Below, piece by piece: positions 24,860 to 33,536 of a stretch of 43,615 nt of DNA; within the stretch, counting starts at the first letter, position 1, and each line of letters begins with the position of its first letter. Source of the DNA: Osedax symbiont Rs1. Lineage in GTDB: Bacteria > Pseudomonadota > Gammaproteobacteria > Pseudomonadales > Balneatricaceae. Location: assembly GCA_000416275.1 (NCBI GenBank), contig ASZJ01000007.1, forward strand, positions 27,583 through 71,197, written 5' to 3'. The notes under the pieces were generated by a model. The model was not told the origin of the DNA. It saw nothing but the letters and a program-made list of their open reading frames with translations, and ran no database searches. A program made the translations under genes and the position numbers.

Positions 24860-25474
24860 CTAAAAGGTTACGACTCTAATCGCCAATAGAATAAAAATGG
24901 CCCCAGTCACACGATTAACCGCTTGATTCTTTTCTTTTAGCCAGTTCAATACCGGTCCTTTCGCCAGCAGCAACACCACCAGTGAATACCATCCACCATC
25001 AATGATTACCACAGTAGCTATCATAATCGCCTGATCCATAAATGATGCATCTACCGAGATGAATTGCGAAAAAATTGCGATAAAAAAGATCGCCAGTTTA
25101 GGGTTGAGAATCGAAATCATCGCACCCTCCATGCCTGCTTTCCACAAGGTGGTTTGCTGTTTGGGGAGGCTTTCACTGACAGTGGTTGCTTTGCCAGCGC
25201 GAATAGCTTGGATGCCTAGATATGCCAAATAACCCGCACCGGCCCAAGTAATAGCTTGAAATAAAACTTGTGATTGAGTGATGATGATCGCCAAACCAAA
25301 AATACAGGCAAATGCCCACAGACCAACACCGATAGCATGAAACCAGCTGGTTGCTAAAGCGTGCTTACGACCGTTATCTGTCGCTTGTTTCAACACTACT
25401 GCTAAACTAGGGCCAGGTGATATTGCGCCTAAGCAGCAGATAGCCACTAAAGAAAACCATGATACGAGAGTCAT
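24860..25474 (-). CDS. LysE/RhtB family amino acid exporter
   Basis: Inner-membrane efflux protein of the LysE superfamily, 204 residues with about six hydrophobic helices. The N-terminal signature GAISPGPSLAVVLKQATDNGRKHALATS is typical of RhtB-type homoserine/threonine exporters. A second conserved stretch is NPKLAIFFIAIFSQF. AGGAG precedes the ATG. The substrate is not predictable from sequence. It is divergent from the cysS leader, but the 320-bp gap between them makes a shared function unsupported. Confidence 0.87.
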   Translation of the reverse strand: MTLVSWFSLVAICCLGAISPGPSLAVVLKQATDNGRKHALATSWFHAIGVGLWAFACIFGLAIIITQSQVLFQAITWAGAGYLAYLGIQAIRAGKATTVSESLPKQQTTLWKAGMEGAMISILNPKLAIFFIAIFSQFISVDASFMDQAIMIATVVIIDGGWYSLVVLLLAKGPVLNWLKEKNQAVNRVTGAIFILLAIRVVTF

Positions 25475-25711
25475 TCAGTACTCCTAGTTGAGGAAGGAGC
25501 TAAGGATACCCTCGGTGACAGCTAGATACAACTCAAGCTTAATGCGCTTAAATTACCAGCAACTATTAGTCGTGTTTGAGCTAATATTTTTTATTAGATT
25601 TTTGATATAAAGTATTGATATAACTATGATTTTAAAGTTGCTTGCGCTGAATCGACAATCAATCGTAATAGCATTTAGCAGCGAGCAAACTGATAATAAT
25701 AAGTAAGTAGC

Positions 25712-25741
25712 TTGACAGCAGTATACGAAATCTTGAATAAT
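25712..25741 (+). promoter_or_regulatory. Promoter of the cysS leader
   Basis: A perfect -35 TTGACA (25712-25717), an 18-bp spacer and -10 AATAAT (25736-25741, five of six consensus bases). Transcription would start near 25748 and run through the Cys-rich leader ORF, the terminator and then cysS. Confidence 0.7.
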
Positions 25742-25802
25742 TACCTATTCGAAATATAGCCGTATTATTTTTAGATCAAAAACCATTGGATTCCTCTTGA
25801 AT

Positions 25803-25904
25803 ATGCAAGCTCAACTTATACCCTTAAAATTTAGTCACCCTGCGCGTAGCAATAGATCATTTTGTTGTAGCTGCTGCTTTGGTTGGTTGCGGTGTACTAG
25901 GTAA
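25803..25904 (+). CDS. Cys-rich leader peptide of cysS (putative attenuator)
   Basis: A 33-codon ORF with five Cys codons, four of them clustered as FCCSCCF (Cys codons 21, 22, 24, 25), and a fifth at codon 31. It lies between a good promoter and a Rho-independent terminator, 203 bp before the cysteinyl-tRNA synthetase gene. Chance clustering of Cys codons like this is unlikely. An in-frame TTG at 25797 with TTGGA six bases upstream may be the real start. The expected role is ribosome stalling when Cys-tRNA is scarce, allowing read-through into cysS. The ORF is visible; its translation and role are inference. Confidence 0.7.
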   Translation: MQAQLIPLKFSHPARSNRSFCCSCCFGWLRCTR

Positions 25905-25921
25905 TTTTTAAATGATCGAGT

Positions 25922-25954
25922 AGGGCCGTTAATTAACATTACCGGCCCTTTTTT
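25922..25954 (+). terminator. Attenuator terminator upstream of cysS
   Basis: Stem AGGGCCG (25922-25928) / CGGCCCT (25943-25949) followed by a run of six T. It lies 17 bp after the leader ORF stop and well before cysS, with no complete gene upstream on this strand, so it should end only the leader RNA. GGTAAT at the leader stop codon (25900-25905) can pair with ATTACC (25938-25943), and GGTTGG (25881-25886) with CCGGCC (25942-25947, two G-U pairs). Both would block terminator formation. Confidence 0.85.
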
Positions 25955-26107
25955 GTGGCTGTCGTTTACTGACTATCAGTACCAATAGCTCAAAAAACTG
26001 CCGTGTAATCTGCGTTTTACCAGCAAGTTTTACAGGTCGCTGGATGTTGCAAAGCTCAATTATTGGCAGCCTATTAAACAATCTAAATCAGCAGAGAAGA
26101 GAATTTT

Positions 26108-27571
26108 ATGTTCCCAACGTTAAAGCTATACGATACTTATCGTCGAAAAATTGCAAAATTCACCCCCATCTCCAATAAAATGGTCACTCTGTACGCTTGT
26201 GGGCCTACCGTTTATGACTTTGCTCACCTGGGGAATTTAAGAAATTATTTGTTTGTCGATGTGCTGCGCCGGGTCCTAGAGTTAAATGGTTATCGGCTTA
26301 AGCATGTGATGAATATCACCGATGTTGGTCATTTAACCTCTGATGCGGATAGCGGTGAAGATAAAATGCAAAAAGGAGCGAGAAAGCACGGCCAATCTGC
26401 CTGGCAGATAGCGAAGTTCTTTGAAGCGGCATTTCTTGAAGACTTAGGAAAATTATCGATCATGCAACCGAGCAGCTTATGCCGTGCCACTGAGCATATT
26501 GCCGAGCAGATCGAATATATTGAAGATCTTGAAAGAAAAGGTTTTACCTATCAGACCTTGGACGGGGTGTATTTTGATACTCAGAAATTGGCTAGCTATG
26601 GCAAGATTGCCAAATTGGATATTGCGGGCTTACAAGGTGGTAAAAGAGTGGAGCTTGGAGAAAAACGTCAGATAACCGATTTCGCACTGTGGAAGTTTAG
26701 CGAGACTGACAAGTCTATAGCAGCTGCTAAACAAGAACGGCAAATGCAGTGGTCAAGCCCTTGGGGGATCGGCTTTCCCGGCTGGCACATCGAGTGTTCG
26801 GCAATGTCGGAGAAGTACTTAGGGACAAAATTTGATATTCATGTAGGTGGTGAAGATCACATACCTGTGCATCATGCCAATGAAATTGCGCAATCTGAGG
26901 GTAGGCATGGTCATCAGCCGGCCAATTTTTGGATGCATGGCTATTTTTTACAAATGGGTAAGGAAAAGCTATCAAAATCAGGAAAATCATTGTTGCTAAG
27001 GGATTTACTAGAACAAGGTTATGATCCTCTGGCTTTTAGGTATCTAGTATTGACCGGTCACTATCGATCATCGATGCAGTTTAGTATGCAGGCCTTGCAA
27101 AGTGCCGCTATCGCGCTGCAGCGACTGCGAACAATGGTTGCAGACTGGTTAGTTGATGCATGCCATGAATCGAGTGACCTGCAAAAATCCGCGGACCATG
27201 CTCAAGTAAGTGCCGCTGATAAGGGAATTATAAACCTTGAGTATCAGTTAGCGTTTCTCAACTGCGTCAATAACGATTTAAATATGCCACAGGCGCTCGC
27301 CATACTTTGGGCGGTAGTCAAAAGTAAACTCAGTGCTGCAGATAAACGAGCGACAGTGCTGTATTTTGATCAGGTATTTGCCTTGTCTCTGCATAAATCG
27401 ACAAATACCATCCAGATACCAAGCGAGATTACAGCGTTAGCAGAGCAGCGATTGCAAGCGAGGTTAAATCGGCGCTGGGCAAAAAGCGACCAGATAAGAG
27501 AAAAGTTGCGCCAATTAGGTTATGTCATCACAGATACTGATAGCGGCTATCAATTGCAAACTACTCTTTGA
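26108..27571 (+). CDS. cysS: Cysteinyl-tRNA synthetase
   Basis: Class I aminoacyl-tRNA synthetase charging tRNA-Cys. The 487 residues (E. coli 461) contain the HIGH-equivalent in CGPTVYDFAHLGNLRNYL. Zinc ligands lie in YACGPT, WHIECSAMS and HHANEIAQSE, and the KMSKS-equivalent is KLSKSGKSLLLRDLL. The anticodon-binding tail ends with NRRWAKSDQIREKLRQLGY, a typical CysRS segment. GAGAAGAG precedes the ATG. It is single-gene, preceded by a leader with Cys codons and a terminator, so its expression is probably tied to Cys-tRNA charging. Confidence 0.97.
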   Translation: MFPTLKLYDTYRRKIAKFTPISNKMVTLYACGPTVYDFAHLGNLRNYLFVDVLRRVLELNGYRLKHVMNITDVGHLTSDADSGEDKMQKGARKHGQSAWQIAKFFEAAFLEDLGKLSIMQPSSLCRATEHIAEQIEYIEDLERKGFTYQTLDGVYFDTQKLASYGKIAKLDIAGLQGGKRVELGEKRQITDFALWKFSETDKSIAAAKQERQMQWSSPWGIGFPGWHIECSAMSEKYLGTKFDIHVGGEDHIPVHHANEIAQSEGRHGHQPANFWMHGYFLQMGKEKLSKSGKSLLLRDLLEQGYDPLAFRYLVLTGHYRSSMQFSMQALQSAAIALQRLRTMVADWLVDACHESSDLQKSADHAQVSAADKGIINLEYQLAFLNCVNNDLNMPQALAILWAVVKSKLSAADKRATVLYFDQVFALSLHKSTNTIQIPSEITALAEQRLQARLNRRWAKSDQIREKLRQLGYVITDTDSGYQLQTTL

Positions 27572-27922: not shown

Positions 27923-28849
27923 ATGACCATATTAGTAACACTAGGGCCTTTGTTAGCGGCGCTAATAATAGGATTTAGTTGGAATATCAAAGGCCTGTCT
28001 ACTCAGGTAATAGACACAGCTTTAAAGTGGTTGACCTTTGCTATCCTGGCACTGATCGGTTATAGCATCGGTAGTTTAGATGATCTGCAGACTAAATTAT
28101 ATCAGGCGGGTTTTATTTCGCTGGTCTTATTCGCGTTCATTGTCTTGTTCAATATTGGCTTTCTGACCGTCAGTGGTAAGTATTTAAATAGCCCAGCTAG
28201 TCGGCAAGATGCCAGCCCTGAAAAAGTTTCAATTGTGTTGAATTGGGCGACCTTTTCAGATTCTGTGCAGACCATTATCTGGGTGGTGGTTGGCTGTGTG
28301 GTGGGTTATTTTAGCAAAGGTTTTTTTGAACATGCCGATGCGCTTGTTGCCTGGATGTTGTATTTGTTATTGTTTTTAGTCGGCCAGCAGTTGATGCGAG
28401 CTAACTATAGACTGAGATCACTATTTATAAATGTTCAAGGTCTGATTATTTGCTTCGTCACTATGTTGAGTACTTTACTGGCAGGAGCGGTCGGTGCGTA
28501 CGTTATCGATCTACCTATATACCAAGGGCTGGCGGTTGTCTCTGGTTTTGGTTGGTACAGTCTATCCGGCATCATATTATCGGATCTAGGTTATCCCTTG
28601 TTAGGCACCACCGCTTTTTTACTTGATATAGGTCGAGAAGTTTTTGCCCTAGTGATGATACCTTTATTATCGCGAATAAATAATCACTGTGGTGTTGGTG
28701 TATCAGGAGCTACCGCGATGGATTTTACCTTGCCAATGCTCGGTAAATTTCACGGCGCTACTATTATACCGACAGCGATTGCCAGCGGTTTCCTATTAAG
28801 TATCTTTGTGCCGATCTTAATCCCCTTGTTTATGTCTTTTTCAGCGTAG
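27923..28849 (+). CDS. lysO: Lysine exporter LysO (YbjE family)
   Basis: Inner-membrane exporter for L-lysine (and the toxic analogue thialysine in E. coli). The 308 residues (E. coli LysO 299) are strongly hydrophobic with about eight helices. The family motifs are VSGFGWYSLSGIILSDLGYPLLGTTAFLLDIGRE and GATAMDFTLPMLGKFHGATIIPTAIASGF. Within the helices are the acidic residues expected for the proton path. GAGGT precedes the ATG. It is alone on its transcript, with a family A element behind it. Confidence 0.9.
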   Translation: MTILVTLGPLLAALIIGFSWNIKGLSTQVIDTALKWLTFAILALIGYSIGSLDDLQTKLYQAGFISLVLFAFIVLFNIGFLTVSGKYLNSPASRQDASPEKVSIVLNWATFSDSVQTIIWVVVGCVVGYFSKGFFEHADALVAWMLYLLLFLVGQQLMRANYRLRSLFINVQGLIICFVTMLSTLLAGAVGAYVIDLPIYQGLAVVSGFGWYSLSGIILSDLGYPLLGTTAFLLDIGREVFALVMIPLLSRINNHCGVGVSGATAMDFTLPMLGKFHGATIIPTAIASGFLLSIFVPILIPLFMSFSA

Positions 28850-30015: not shown

Positions 30016-31041
30016 TTAGTTATTTTTTCTGCTCATCATCCAAATAAAAAACATCCCTCCAATTAAACCAGTGATTATGCCAATAGGTAGCTCTTGAGGG
30101 GAGAGTAGTTTTCTGGCAAATATATCAACCACCACTAAAAATATAGCACCGTAAATAGCAGAAAAAACAATAAGTTGTCGGTTGTCAGCACCGATAAACA
30201 TCCGCAAAATATGTGGAATCATCAAACCGACAAAACCGATAGCTCCTGAAAAAGCAACCATGACACTGGTTAATAGAGCTGTACAAATAAAAATTTTTAA
30301 TCTGAACTTGGTTATATTGATACCGAGAGTTGCTGCAATTTCTTCTCCTGCCATTAAGGCATTTATTTTTCGGCTATTTAGAGTGAACCATGTAAAACAG
30401 ACTATGAAAATCGTTAAAGGGTAGATTAGCTCTCTCCACTGAGCTAAACCTAAACCGCCTAACATCCAAAAAAGTACATTGTGCGCAGCGCGGTGATCCC
30501 CCAAGAAAATAAGAAGATTGGCAGCTGACATAATAACAAATGACACGGCCACACCGGAAAGTATCAATTTATTTGGATCATAAAAGCCGGTCTTTTTAGT
30601 CACTATAATCACCATAAAGATAGAGACTAGTGCCCCGCAAAATGCGAACACCGGAATGGTAATGGATCCAAATATTAACCCTACATGCATGATTGCCACT
30701 ATTGCACCAAATGCAGCGCCGGAGCTGACCCCCATTAAATGTGGGTCAGCTAAGGGATTGCGAGTCGCCGTTTGTAAGACACAACCAGTCACCGCTAGTC
30801 CTGCACCAACTAAAGCCCCTAAGATTATTCTCGGAGCACGAATTTGCCAAATAATATTTTGCTGGCCATTGCTCCATTCCATAGCGAGATTAGCTCTGCT
30901 AAAAATTTCTGGGGAGATTTGATTAAGTATAATTCCCCAGCTCAAGCTAAGGGGTATATCAGCTGTACCGAAAGAGATGGCGATACTCATAGATACTATT
31001 AGTATTACCAACCCGATCCAAATTCTATAAATGAAAGACAT
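30016..31041 (-). CDS. B12-type ABC transporter permease (BtuC/FecCD family)
   Basis: Inner-membrane permease of a cobalamin or iron-chelate importer, 341 residues with about ten hydrophobic helices. FecCD features are visible: RAPRIILGALVGAGLAVTGCVLQTATRNPLADPHLMGVSSGAAFGA, near the N terminus, and FVGLMIPHILRMFIGADNR and LPIGIITGLIGGMFFIWMM at the C terminus. It is the last gene of the riboswitch-led operon. A complete family B element sits between it and the binding-protein gene. Cobalamin is favoured by the riboswitch; the family also includes siderophore permeases. Confidence 0.9.
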   Translation of the reverse strand: MSFIYRIWIGLVILIVSMSIAISFGTADIPLSLSWGIILNQISPEIFSRANLAMEWSNGQQNIIWQIRAPRIILGALVGAGLAVTGCVLQTATRNPLADPHLMGVSSGAAFGAIVAIMHVGLIFGSITIPVFAFCGALVSIFMVIIVTKKTGFYDPNKLILSGVAVSFVIMSAANLLIFLGDHRAAHNVLFWMLGGLGLAQWRELIYPLTIFIVCFTWFTLNSRKINALMAGEEIAATLGINITKFRLKIFICTALLTSVMVAFSGAIGFVGLMIPHILRMFIGADNRQLIVFSAIYGAIFLVVVDIFARKLLSPQELPIGIITGLIGGMFFIWMMSRKNN

Positions 31042-31493: not shown

Positions 31494-32453
31494 TTAAAAG
31501 TTTTTTAATAATTTTTTTATAGCGGCTATGTTTCTAGGGCCCGGTGTCGCCTCATCATATTGCAACACCACAAAACGATTGTTTTTCACGGCTTCAATAT
31601 CTTTAAATGCCGGGTTGTTTTTCATGAAGGCAATTTTCTGTTCAGCAGTAACATCACCGTAGTTAATAATTACAATCACTTCAGGATTGCGTTCAACCAC
31701 CGATTCCCAACCAACTTTCACCCAGCTTTGTTCAATATCATCCATTATATTTACCCCCCCAGCCGCTTCAATTAAAGCCGTCGGCATCGCATATTTCCCA
31801 GCGCTGAAAGGTTTGTCTTCTCCGCTGTCATACACAAAGACTCTAAGTGGCTTGTTTCTATCGGGGGCTTTAGCTAAAGCAGTTTGCAGTTCTAATTTAT
31901 AACCGGAAATTAGTGTTTCAGCGCGTTCAGAAACAGCAAATATTTTTCCGAGATTGCGAAGGTCATGATAAACATCTTCCAAAGTTACTTTTTTTCGTGA
32001 CATGATGTGAATACATGACTCGCTTAATTCATAGCTTTTAATACCAAATTTATTGAGAGATAAAGGGGTAACATCGCCACCTACTTTGAAACCGTAATTC
32101 CAGCCGGCAAAATAAAAATCTACATCGGCATTGAGTAATACTTCTCTAGTGGGGTATTTTTCAGATAGTTGAGGTAATTCACCAATATTAGCCACTAAAG
32201 ATGGGCTTAAATTTTTCCATCCGGATACTCCTGAATAACCAACCATGCTATCACGAAGACCAAGTGCGAGGAGCATTTCAGTAAGGTTGACATCATTGGA
32301 AACTGCTCTTGTTGGAGCTTGTTCAAAGGTAACTTTTCGATCACATGATTCAATTGTTATAGGGTAGTTATCGGTTGCAGCGTAAGCATTTATTACGCAA
32401 AAACTTAAGCAAACTAAATTAGTTTTAAGAATTTTCTTAGTCAATGTTTTCAA
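31494..32453 (-). CDS. Cobalamin-type ABC transporter substrate-binding protein (BtuF-like)
   Basis: Periplasmic binding protein of the Fe/B12 type. I start at the TTG at 32453 (319 residues), which has AGAGG seven bases upstream and begins with a good signal peptide (LKTLTKKILKTNLVCLSFCVINAYA). A longer frame reaching 32531 begins inside a mobile element and is unlikely to be used. The mature part shows MLLALGLRDSMVGYSGVSGW, ADVDFYFAGWNYGF, a long helix and VWESVVERNPEVIVIINYGD-like C-lobe elements. Substrate is inferred from the riboswitch. Confidence 0.85.
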   Translation of the reverse strand: MKTLTKKILKTNLVCLSFCVINAYAATDNYPITIESCDRKVTFEQAPTRAVSNDVNLTEMLLALGLRDSMVGYSGVSGWKNLSPSLVANIGELPQLSEKYPTREVLLNADVDFYFAGWNYGFKVGGDVTPLSLNKFGIKSYELSESCIHIMSRKKVTLEDVYHDLRNLGKIFAVSERAETLISGYKLELQTALAKAPDRNKPLRVFVYDSGEDKPFSAGKYAMPTALIEAAGGVNIMDDIEQSWVKVGWESVVERNPEVIVIINYGDVTAEQKIAFMKNNPAFKDIEAVKNNRFVVLQYDEATPGPRNIAAIKKLLKNF

Positions 32454-32512
32454 AAGTAATCCTCTACGATGATGAATTTTTATATCGTTAAAATTGTGGG
32501 GGCTATCTATCT

Positions 32513-32672
32513 CCTGAATCAGTGACTTCACTGCACCACATAGCGCAAGCTCTTGATCCTACAGCGGTTAGAAAAATTCCCACTGAACCTACGGGTGCAG
32601 CTAAGATTTTTCAATTCCACCGTAAAACCAATATCTTACACTCTGTATTCACTTTGAAGTCACGGATTCAGG
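32513..32672 (-). mobile_element. Family A element, complete copy A4
   Basis: A 160-bp element with 18-bp terminal inverted repeats: CCTGAATCAGTGACTTCA at one end and the complement of CCTGAATCCGTGACTTCA at the other (one mismatch). It is flanked by an exact 5-bp direct repeat TATCT (32508-32512 and 32673-32677). No coding capacity. It separates the ATPase gene from the binding-protein gene of the B12 operon. It differs at only two positions over about 77 bases from the copy at the right edge of the window. Confidence 0.92.
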
Positions 32673-32708: not shown

Positions 32709-33536
32709 TTATTGCAATGAGTATTGAAATTGATGAGTGTTGCTTTTATGGTGATAGTTGACAGTGCAATTAACACCGTATGCTTGCTTAATTAGCGGTG
32801 GGGTTAAGATATCAACCGTTTTTCCATGGGCTAGTAGTTGGCCTTGATGTAGCAACAAAATATTGTCACAAAAATTTGCAGCTAAATTGAGATCATGTAA
32901 GGTGATGATTATCGTGATGCCTAAATTAGAAATGAGCTGCATTATTTCTAGCTGATGGCGTATGTCTAAGTGGTTGGTGGGCTCATCTAAAATTAGAATA
33001 TCTGGTTGTTGAGCTAAAGCACGCGCTAAATATACTCTTTGCTTTTCACCACCAGATAGCTCAGTGAAAACACGATTGATGAAAGGTGCCAAGGATAATT
33101 GCTCTATAATTTCATTAATTATCGCATCATCGGAGTTATTTATTGAACCAAACAGGCGGAAATATGGAGTTCTGCCCATTTCAATTATCTGTTTAACTGT
33201 TAGTGAAAATTCAGCAGGACTCTCTTGTAATACCACTGCTACTTGCTGTGAAAAAATTTGCGGAGTTAGTTTCCATATATCTTGCTCAGCGAGGTAGATA
33301 TAGCCTTCACTTGGTTTATGTACTCTATATAAACAGCGTAATAAGCTTGATTTCCCCGCCCCGTTAGCACCAACGATTCCTAGAATTTCATTTTTTTGGA
33401 TATTAAAATTGAGTTTGTTTAATAAGGTAGAAGACTTGTTTGGCCCCCAAGATAAATTTATAACACGCATCACAGTTTTAAGTGTTGCCACAGGTAGAGG
33501 GGAGGTAAGTGTCTTTAGCGTATTATTATCGGTCAT
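32709..33536 (-). CDS. B12-type ABC transporter ATP-binding protein (BtuD/FecE family)
   Basis: Cytoplasmic ATPase of the importer, 275 residues. Walker A is VGANGAGKSS, the signature is LSGGEKQRVYLARALAQQP, Walker B is ILILDEPTNHLD and the H-loop lies in IIITLHDLNLAANFCD. The sequence GKTVDILTPPLIKQAYGV is typical of FecE/BtuD proteins. It is the first gene after the cobalamin riboswitch on the minus strand, so its transcript is probably repressed by adenosylcobalamin. The gene symbol is withheld because siderophore relatives look the same. Confidence 0.9.
   Translation of the reverse strand: MTDNNTLKTLTSPLPVATLKTVMRVINLSWGPNKSSTLLNKLNFNIQKNEILGIVGANGAGKSSLLRCLYRVHKPSEGYIYLAEQDIWKLTPQIFSQQVAVVLQESPAEFSLTVKQIIEMGRTPYFRLFGSINNSDDAIINEIIEQLSLAPFINRVFTELSGGEKQRVYLARALAQQPDILILDEPTNHLDIRHQLEIMQLISNLGITIIITLHDLNLAANFCDNILLLHQGQLLAHGKTVDILTPPLIKQAYGVNCTVNYHHKSNTHQFQYSLQ

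Follow-up and report, generated by a model that had tools for sequence, protein, structure and literature searches.

A cysteine-rich open reading frame (ORF), closely followed by a hairpin, precedes a gene for a cysteinyl-tRNA synthetase (CysRS) in the genome of Osedax symbiont Rs1, which raises the question of whether the two form a switch through which the supply of charged tRNA(Cys) controls that gene. The window, i.e. the whole stretch of DNA analysed here, comprises 43,615 nucleotides. Comparison with relatives makes it highly likely that this gene, named here cysS2, is subject to ribosome-mediated transcription attenuation by the supply of Cys-tRNA(Cys). At the level of sequence, the comparison establishes the order of the parts, the terminator fold, the retention of the Cys cluster and of the spacing between leader stop and terminator, and the identity of the target as a second CysRS.

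Architecture of the cysS2 leader region

Rechecking of the sequence confirms the parts and positions given by the original prediction, namely a promoter (TTGACA-18-AATAAT), a 33-codon Cys ORF, a terminator that starts 17 nt past the leader stop, and cysS (Table 1). The leader ORF contains five Cys residues in its 33 codons, four of them at codons 21, 22, 24 and 25 and the fifth, Cys31, at 25893–25895. The terminator hairpin has a predicted folding energy of −14.4 kcal/mol (z −3.74), and 1 of 200 shuffles folds equally well. A simple terminator scanner run over the leader region found no terminator and thus missed this one, and promoter-like sites in the region are not above chance (4 versus 2.4 in shuffles, s.d. 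1.9); the promoter and terminator calls therefore rest on folding and conservation. No strong Shine-Dalgarno sequence is apparent by eye before the leader ORF. Rfam scans show no family at the leader and no match within 25650–26150 up to an E value of 5, hence no T-box.

Table 1. Features of the leader region and its neighbourhood in the window
Feature	Position	Strand	Basis or remark
LysE-type exporter gene, upstream of and divergent from the leader	24860–25474	−	Family search
Fossil, 3′ end of an upstream MCP-like gene (LTAVYEILNNYLFEI, then stop)	25703–25759	+	Alignment to congeners; encloses the promoter
Promoter TTGACA-18-AATAAT	−35, 25712–25717; −10, 25736–25741	+	11/12 consensus positions
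Leader ORF MQAQLIPLKFSHPARSNRSFCCSCCFGWLRCTR	25803–25904	+	33 codons, TAA stop
Cys codon cluster, codons 21–25 (CCSCC), presumed stall site	25863–25877	+	Sequence
Region 2, predicted antiterminator strand TTGGTTGCGGTGTACTA	25883–25899	+	Pairs with 25918–25935
Region 3, terminator 5′ arm and flank, partner of region 2	25918–25935	+	Pairing prediction
Intrinsic terminator AGGGCCG...CGGCCCT and T tract	25922–25954	+	Stem 25922–25949, T tract to 25954
cysS2, second cysteinyl-tRNA synthetase	26108–27571 (ATG 26108)	+	TIGR00435, PF01406
LysO-family exporter, next gene after cysS2	27923–28849	+	PF03956

All 44 TGYTGYNNNTGYTGY sites of the genome were inspected, and the cysS2 leader is the only one that combines a short ORF with a start codon and a terminator (−9 kcal/mol or lower) within 120 nt. 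A wider Cys regulon was considered and rejected, there being no second such combination among the 44; another Cys-codon site of the genome (L151) has a hairpin of −9.8 kcal/mol and lacks a start codon.

The target is a second cysteinyl-tRNA synthetase

The cysS2 product matches TIGR00435 with 415 bits (cut-off 340) and also PF01406. Its sequence contains the catalytic and zinc-ligand motifs, namely CGPTVY, HIECS, HHANE and KLSKS. The genome has two CysRS genes, the other copy (G000:C56) being 39% identical to cysS2. The original prediction of cysS as the target thus stands in that the gene encodes a cysteine--tRNA ligase, so that the structural gene matches the amino acid sensed by the leader, but the gene is the second CysRS rather than the housekeeping copy.

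Among 116 genomes of the family, cysS2 of the window's type is confined to the window's genus, where all seven members searched have it; in the other genera the best matches are at the level of the other CysRS type, and three genomes have no match. A sample of the order contains 7 genomes out of 390, the window's own included, with a cysS2 match at E 1e-90 or better. A whole housekeeping cysS is present in five of the seven genus members; the drafts G111 and G113 show no whole copy, and G113 has no more than a fragment of 33 residues where a contig ends. Both CysRS types occur in the searched genomes of Chromobacterium, Paludibacterium, Pseudogulbenkiania, Janthinobacterium and Pseudomonas RIT-PI-S, and type 2 alone was matched in five Undibacterium and two Burkholderiales genomes, whose completeness is not given. 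Since these two Burkholderiales carry the leader, its presence does not strictly depend on the CysRS being auxiliary. Two matches are irregular: in Paludibacterium (L127, G491:C3) cysS2 is interrupted by an in-frame TAG, and in Paraburkholderia sprentiae (L179) it consists of two aligned pieces with no listed gene.

Conservation within the genus

The upstream comparison in relatives that the original prediction had put forward as a check bears it out: a Cys-clustered ORF and a terminator lie upstream of cysS2 in all seven members of the genus (the window genome and G110 to G115), with peptides that otherwise differ. The clusters read FCCSCC, SCCKCCC (G114 and G110), CNSCAKCCC, CLCLGEKCCC, CVNCCACKTCRC and CCACCLCC. 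Spacing between leader stop and terminator stays within 15–22 nt in seven of seven members; peptide sequence, ORF length and the distance from leader to cysS2 are variable. The hairpin is found at the same place in all six congeners, the U tail of G115 being weak. G110 ends at a contig edge, which places its leader start codon and promoter region out of view. Promoter hexamers and their spacing are identical in the window genome, G114, G111, G113 and G112, and G115 has no aligned promoter site of the TTGACA-18-AATAAT kind.

In G114, G111, G113 and G112, a same-strand MCP-like frame ('MCP-like' is a reading from sequence, made without a family search) spans the promoter and ends just past it, upstream of the leader. 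As the hexamers sit inside the end of this frame, their conservation in these four genomes could be partly coding. The MCP-like C termini are intact there, of the ...LTAACEILNNRVAGYRI-stop type, and the window keeps the last codons alone. This arrangement bears on an alternative explanation of the hairpin, as the ordinary terminator of an upstream gene, with the Cys-rich ORF present by chance. The original prediction had seen no full gene on this strand that the terminator could serve, which is true of the window, where the upstream neighbour is divergent, but not of these four congeners, in which the MCP-like frame ends just before the leader. However, leader and terminator persist in the window with only the last codons of that gene; G115 has, like the window, an opposite-strand LysE-like gene upstream of the leader instead; the Cys ORF ends 15–22 nt before the terminator in every member; and the combination occurs in none of 30 regions upstream of housekeeping cysS. 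An ordinary upstream terminator is, on this evidence, very improbable.

Still slightly less credible is that the Cys-rich ORF encodes a functional small protein, e.g. a metal-binding one, whose adjacency to cysS2 is accidental. Outside the Cys cluster no likeness is seen by eye among the peptides of the window genome, of G115, of G112/G113 and of G114/G111/G110, and what the leaders have in common, Cys codons near the stop and an adjoining terminator, is the signature of a leader peptide; this outweighs the fact that CCxCC-like clusters could bind metal and that a uORF acting in a copper response is described in the accessible text of PMC9426467.

Leaders beyond the genus

Two of the six further cysS2 carriers in the order sample, G183 and G361, which represent two other families, have leaders, MTYQIALTQLCCCCCYRSDIRRPSHSY (LCCCCCYR) and MENFTQLKTILSAFTASECCCVSPRNPHT (SECCCVSP) respectively, both with strong terminators; the four carriers of family f39 have none. 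A detector of a Cys ORF plus terminator recovers 14 of 89 cysS2 upstream regions, 0 of 30 of housekeeping cysS, 0 of 119 reverse strands and 2 of 476 shuffles, the 89 being those of nearest relatives, mutually related and not random, with identical proteins counted once. Together with the occurrence in the whole genus, these counts lend strong support to the original prediction of a Cys-codon attenuator of cysS. The 14 matches include two Chromobacterium, Pseudogulbenkiania, Pseudomonas RIT-PI-S and three betaproteobacterial MAGs. The other 75 regions gave no detector match, at least L086 (cut) and L087 (weak tail) being misses of the detector. The housekeeping cysS was itself tried as a second leader site and rejected, the 30 type-1 regions without a match including that of the genome's own copy (L002).

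The detector was adopted because a looser criterion (4 Cys in 12 codons within 500 nt upstream, start codon and terminator not required) is too weak alone, with 12 of 80 loci on the forward versus 4 of 80 on the reverse strand. An earlier detector version with poor gene typing, since replaced, gave 11 of 72 upstream regions, no type 1, no reverse strand and 2 of 230 shuffles. The contig scan took in the best 80 of 580 relatives.

The motif CCPARP is common to the leaders of Chromobacterium amazonense, Paludibacterium and Pseudomonas RIT-PI-S, its counterpart in C. alticapitis being CCQTRP. The plasmid collection holds 624 records with a match, of which 80 are listed and five (H1, H2, H3, H5 and H7) were opened; all four opened Burkholderia/Paraburkholderia replicon copies have ACC(H/Q)xxPGGxCV and, by eye, the same layout. 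The residues that follow CC in the CCPARP, CCQTRP and Burkholderiaceae leaders may be kept because their GC-rich codons pair with the terminator arm, a pairing that does not beat shuffles. The fifth opened copy, on the Vibrio coralliilyticus plasmid pOCN014 (L177/L182), has no Cys leader; at 54.8% it is the closest plasmid-borne cysS2 among the matches listed, it adjoins an NRPS/PKS cluster with a serine O-acetyltransferase, and it could be a self-resistance synthetase. Klebsiella accounts for 503 of the 624 matching plasmid records, with a different cysS that is mostly about 33% identical among the records listed.

On a quick, preliminary tree the leader needs four changes, at least three of them forced, and is present in nine of nine rows of the window's clade, two of them labelled by hand. 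Hand labels on the tree comprise the leader rows L086 and L087 and the rows L007, L013, L029, L034 and L035 (Cys ORF, no terminator). Paludibacterium L056, with an interrupted cysS2 frame, is outside the detector count and the tree and inside the 15- and 19-leader pairing tests described below. Immediately ahead of cysS2, the Undibacterium loci L007, L013, L029 and L034 have short ORFs with Cys codons at their ends; no intrinsic terminator is clear there, and these are possibly a Rho-dependent or translational version of the leader.

Predicted antiterminator pairing and the proposed switch

Across the seven genus leaders, the sequence that pairs best with the terminator 5′ arm begins 20–34 nt past the cluster's first Cys codon; its end lies −5 to +6 nt from the leader stop, a position partly forced by the range searched. 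Compared with shuffled region-2 sequences, pairing of region 2 (codons 27–33) gives a combined p of 3.8e-4 over the genus leaders (2.4e-3 by a second definition) and of 2.7e-3 over all leaders tested (n=15; 6.5e-3, n=19, by the second definition), values that combine related genomes, which are not independent trials, and hand-chosen leader starts and ends in the 15- and 19-leader sets. Singly, 4 of 15 leaders reach p<0.05 (G113, G112, G115 and G183), or 3 of 19 by the second definition (G113, G115 and G183). Region 2 pairing in the window alone is not significant (p 0.34 and 0.54), and p is 0.98–1.0 for G361 and 0.38–0.84 for Burkholderiaceae. The original prediction had instead named GGTAAT and ATTACC as the competing pair. 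Shuffles do not favour it, p being 0.125 for the window by itself and, in combination, 0.07 for the 7 genus leaders, 0.30 for 6 divergent ones and 0.49 for 19; singly only G111 reaches 0.049. Pairing of codons 27–33 with the 5′ arm does better, as a genus set only, and on this basis it is the predicted antiterminator.

Folding of the RNA with the ORF covered, put forward as a check by the original prediction, does not reproduce the switch: at equilibrium, on the full RNA with a blocked ribosome footprint, the terminator wins at every position in all seven genus leaders. When the RNA is cut off beyond the 5′ arm, partway through the loop, moving the ribosome from the stop to early Cys codons raises sequestration by upstream RNA in G114, G111, G110 and G115, and barely does so in the window (0.53–0.61 versus 0.52). 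The expected direction is absent in G112 (0.74–0.95 at Cys codons versus 0.93 at the stop) and in G113 (0.74 at Cys19/21, 0.10 at Cys26/27 and 0.83 at the stop). This simulation of ribosome positions also allows pairing of the RNA behind the ribosome.

The weakness of the antiterminator in the window leaves room for an explanation in which the Cys codons are sensed without the proposed alternative hairpin, the switch being made by Rho, by ribosome–RNAP coupling or by translational control. The Undibacterium leaders that end in Cys runs without a clear terminator point in the same direction, as do the actinobacterial Cys leaders, also without terminators according to the accessible text of PMC1262725. 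Such a switch is nevertheless unlikely, since a hairpin with a T-rich tail is found in the window, the six congeners and G183/G361, and the genus set favours the 5′-arm pairing over shuffles.

In the preferred attenuation mechanism, RNA polymerase would start near 25748, with a ribosome following on the leader ORF. When Cys-tRNA is ample, the ribosome would reach the stop codon and cover region 2, whereupon the hairpin would form and transcription would end. When Cys-tRNA is scarce, the ribosome would stall at codons 21–25 without covering region 2, which could then pair with the terminator 5′ arm and allow read-through into cysS2 and perhaps also into the lysO-like gene. The quantity sensed should be Cys-tRNA(Cys), whatever lowers it.

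Relation to known systems

The trp, his, leu and pheST leaders of Gammaproteobacteria each encode a peptide rich in the regulated amino acid and operate an antiterminator/terminator switch, which in the case of pheST controls an aminoacyl-tRNA synthetase (aaRS). The cysS2 leader has the same plan, with Cys as the amino acid and an auxiliary synthetase as the target. An auxiliary, indolmycin-resistant TrpRS of Streptomyces is likewise under ribosome-mediated attenuation, with stalling at codons of its own amino acid; it is a second aaRS like cysS2, but concerns Trp and Actinobacteria and has a known resistance role.

A Cys-codon attenuator before cysS has been published as uORFC-8-2, with 145 examples from Rhodobacterales only (accessible text of PMC8632094). 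Judged by description rather than by sequence, uORFC-8-2 resembles the cysS2 leader in its tandem-Cys uORF, its terminator with a U run and the cysS gene that comes next, and its authors propose ribosome-mediated attenuation; it differs in that its reported examples are all alphaproteobacterial and in that its Cys codons usually lie at positions 14–15, and it has a stem containing the Cys codons (same source). With a host outside Rhodobacterales and Cys at codons 21–25, the cysS2 leader departs from uORFC-8-2 as described. The remark in the original prediction that no Cys leader for cysS is known to be described in Gammaproteobacteria holds within the literature searched. Titles and abstracts of mainly open-access literature yielded no Cys leader before a gamma- or betaproteobacterial cysS, and in PMC2965389, on premature terminators, cysteine appears in the reference list only.

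Mycobacterial cys operon leaders also have a run of Cys codons near the leader ORF stop but, unlike the cysS2 leader, serve biosynthesis operons and have no conserved terminator hairpin, as far as the accessible text of PMC1262725 goes. A second CysRS kept for stress in Beta- and Gammaproteobacteria is also on record among the CysRS paralogs controlled by Zur, such as CysS2 of Cupriavidus metallidurans, whose zinc-binding residues are said to be conserved; these are under repressor control (accessible texts of PMC10882993 and PMC2770081). Taken together, the cysS2 leader is very probably a further example of the known Cys-codon attenuation before cysS, with an unusual target. New here are the auxiliary CysRS as target, the occurrence in classes other than that of Rhodobacterales, and the LysO-type exporter neighbour in six of seven genus members.

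Neighbourhood and possible role

In the window cysS2 stands between genes of two amino-acid exporter families: after it, on its own strand, comes a LysO gene, and before it lies a divergent gene of LysE type. A LysO-family gene lies 37–354 nt past the cysS2 coding residues in six of seven genus members, at 37–46 nt in three of them, and none lies downstream of cysS2 in G113. The window's gap of about 350 nt between cysS2 and lysO contains one terminator-like and no promoter-like site. Further along the window, a cobalamin riboswitch (RF00174, 33633–33960, − strand, 68.6 bits) stands upstream of what look by sequence like cobalamin ABC-transporter genes (32709–33536, 31494–32531 and 30016–31041).

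The arrangement suggests a backup for failing tRNA-Cys charging. Because an exporter adjoins a synthetase that would be switched on by poor charging, our guess is that the pair serves against failure of CysRS itself and not against mere starvation; loss of zinc is one way in which the housekeeping CysRS could fail. It is conceivable, although doubtful as a whole, that leader, cysS2 and LysO-type exporter form a charging-triggered rescue cassette that supplies a different CysRS type and an exporter on failure of the housekeeping CysRS. Such a cassette would be off while the housekeeping CysRS works and on once that enzyme fails, be it through an inhibitor, through a toxic analogue of cysteine or through loss of zinc. 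If this were the case, type-2 cysS would have come under Cys-codon attenuators on several occasions in Gamma- and Betaproteobacteria.

With the cysS2 leader, Cys-codon attenuation of cysS reaches beyond Rhodobacterales into Gamma- and Betaproteobacteria and is linked to an auxiliary CysRS. If the proposed mechanism is true, these bacteria would use the charging of tRNA(Cys) itself to time the making of a second synthetase, as an alternative to Zur control of CysRS paralogs, and the leader might be put to use as a natural reporter of starvation for cysteine or of inhibition of CysRS.
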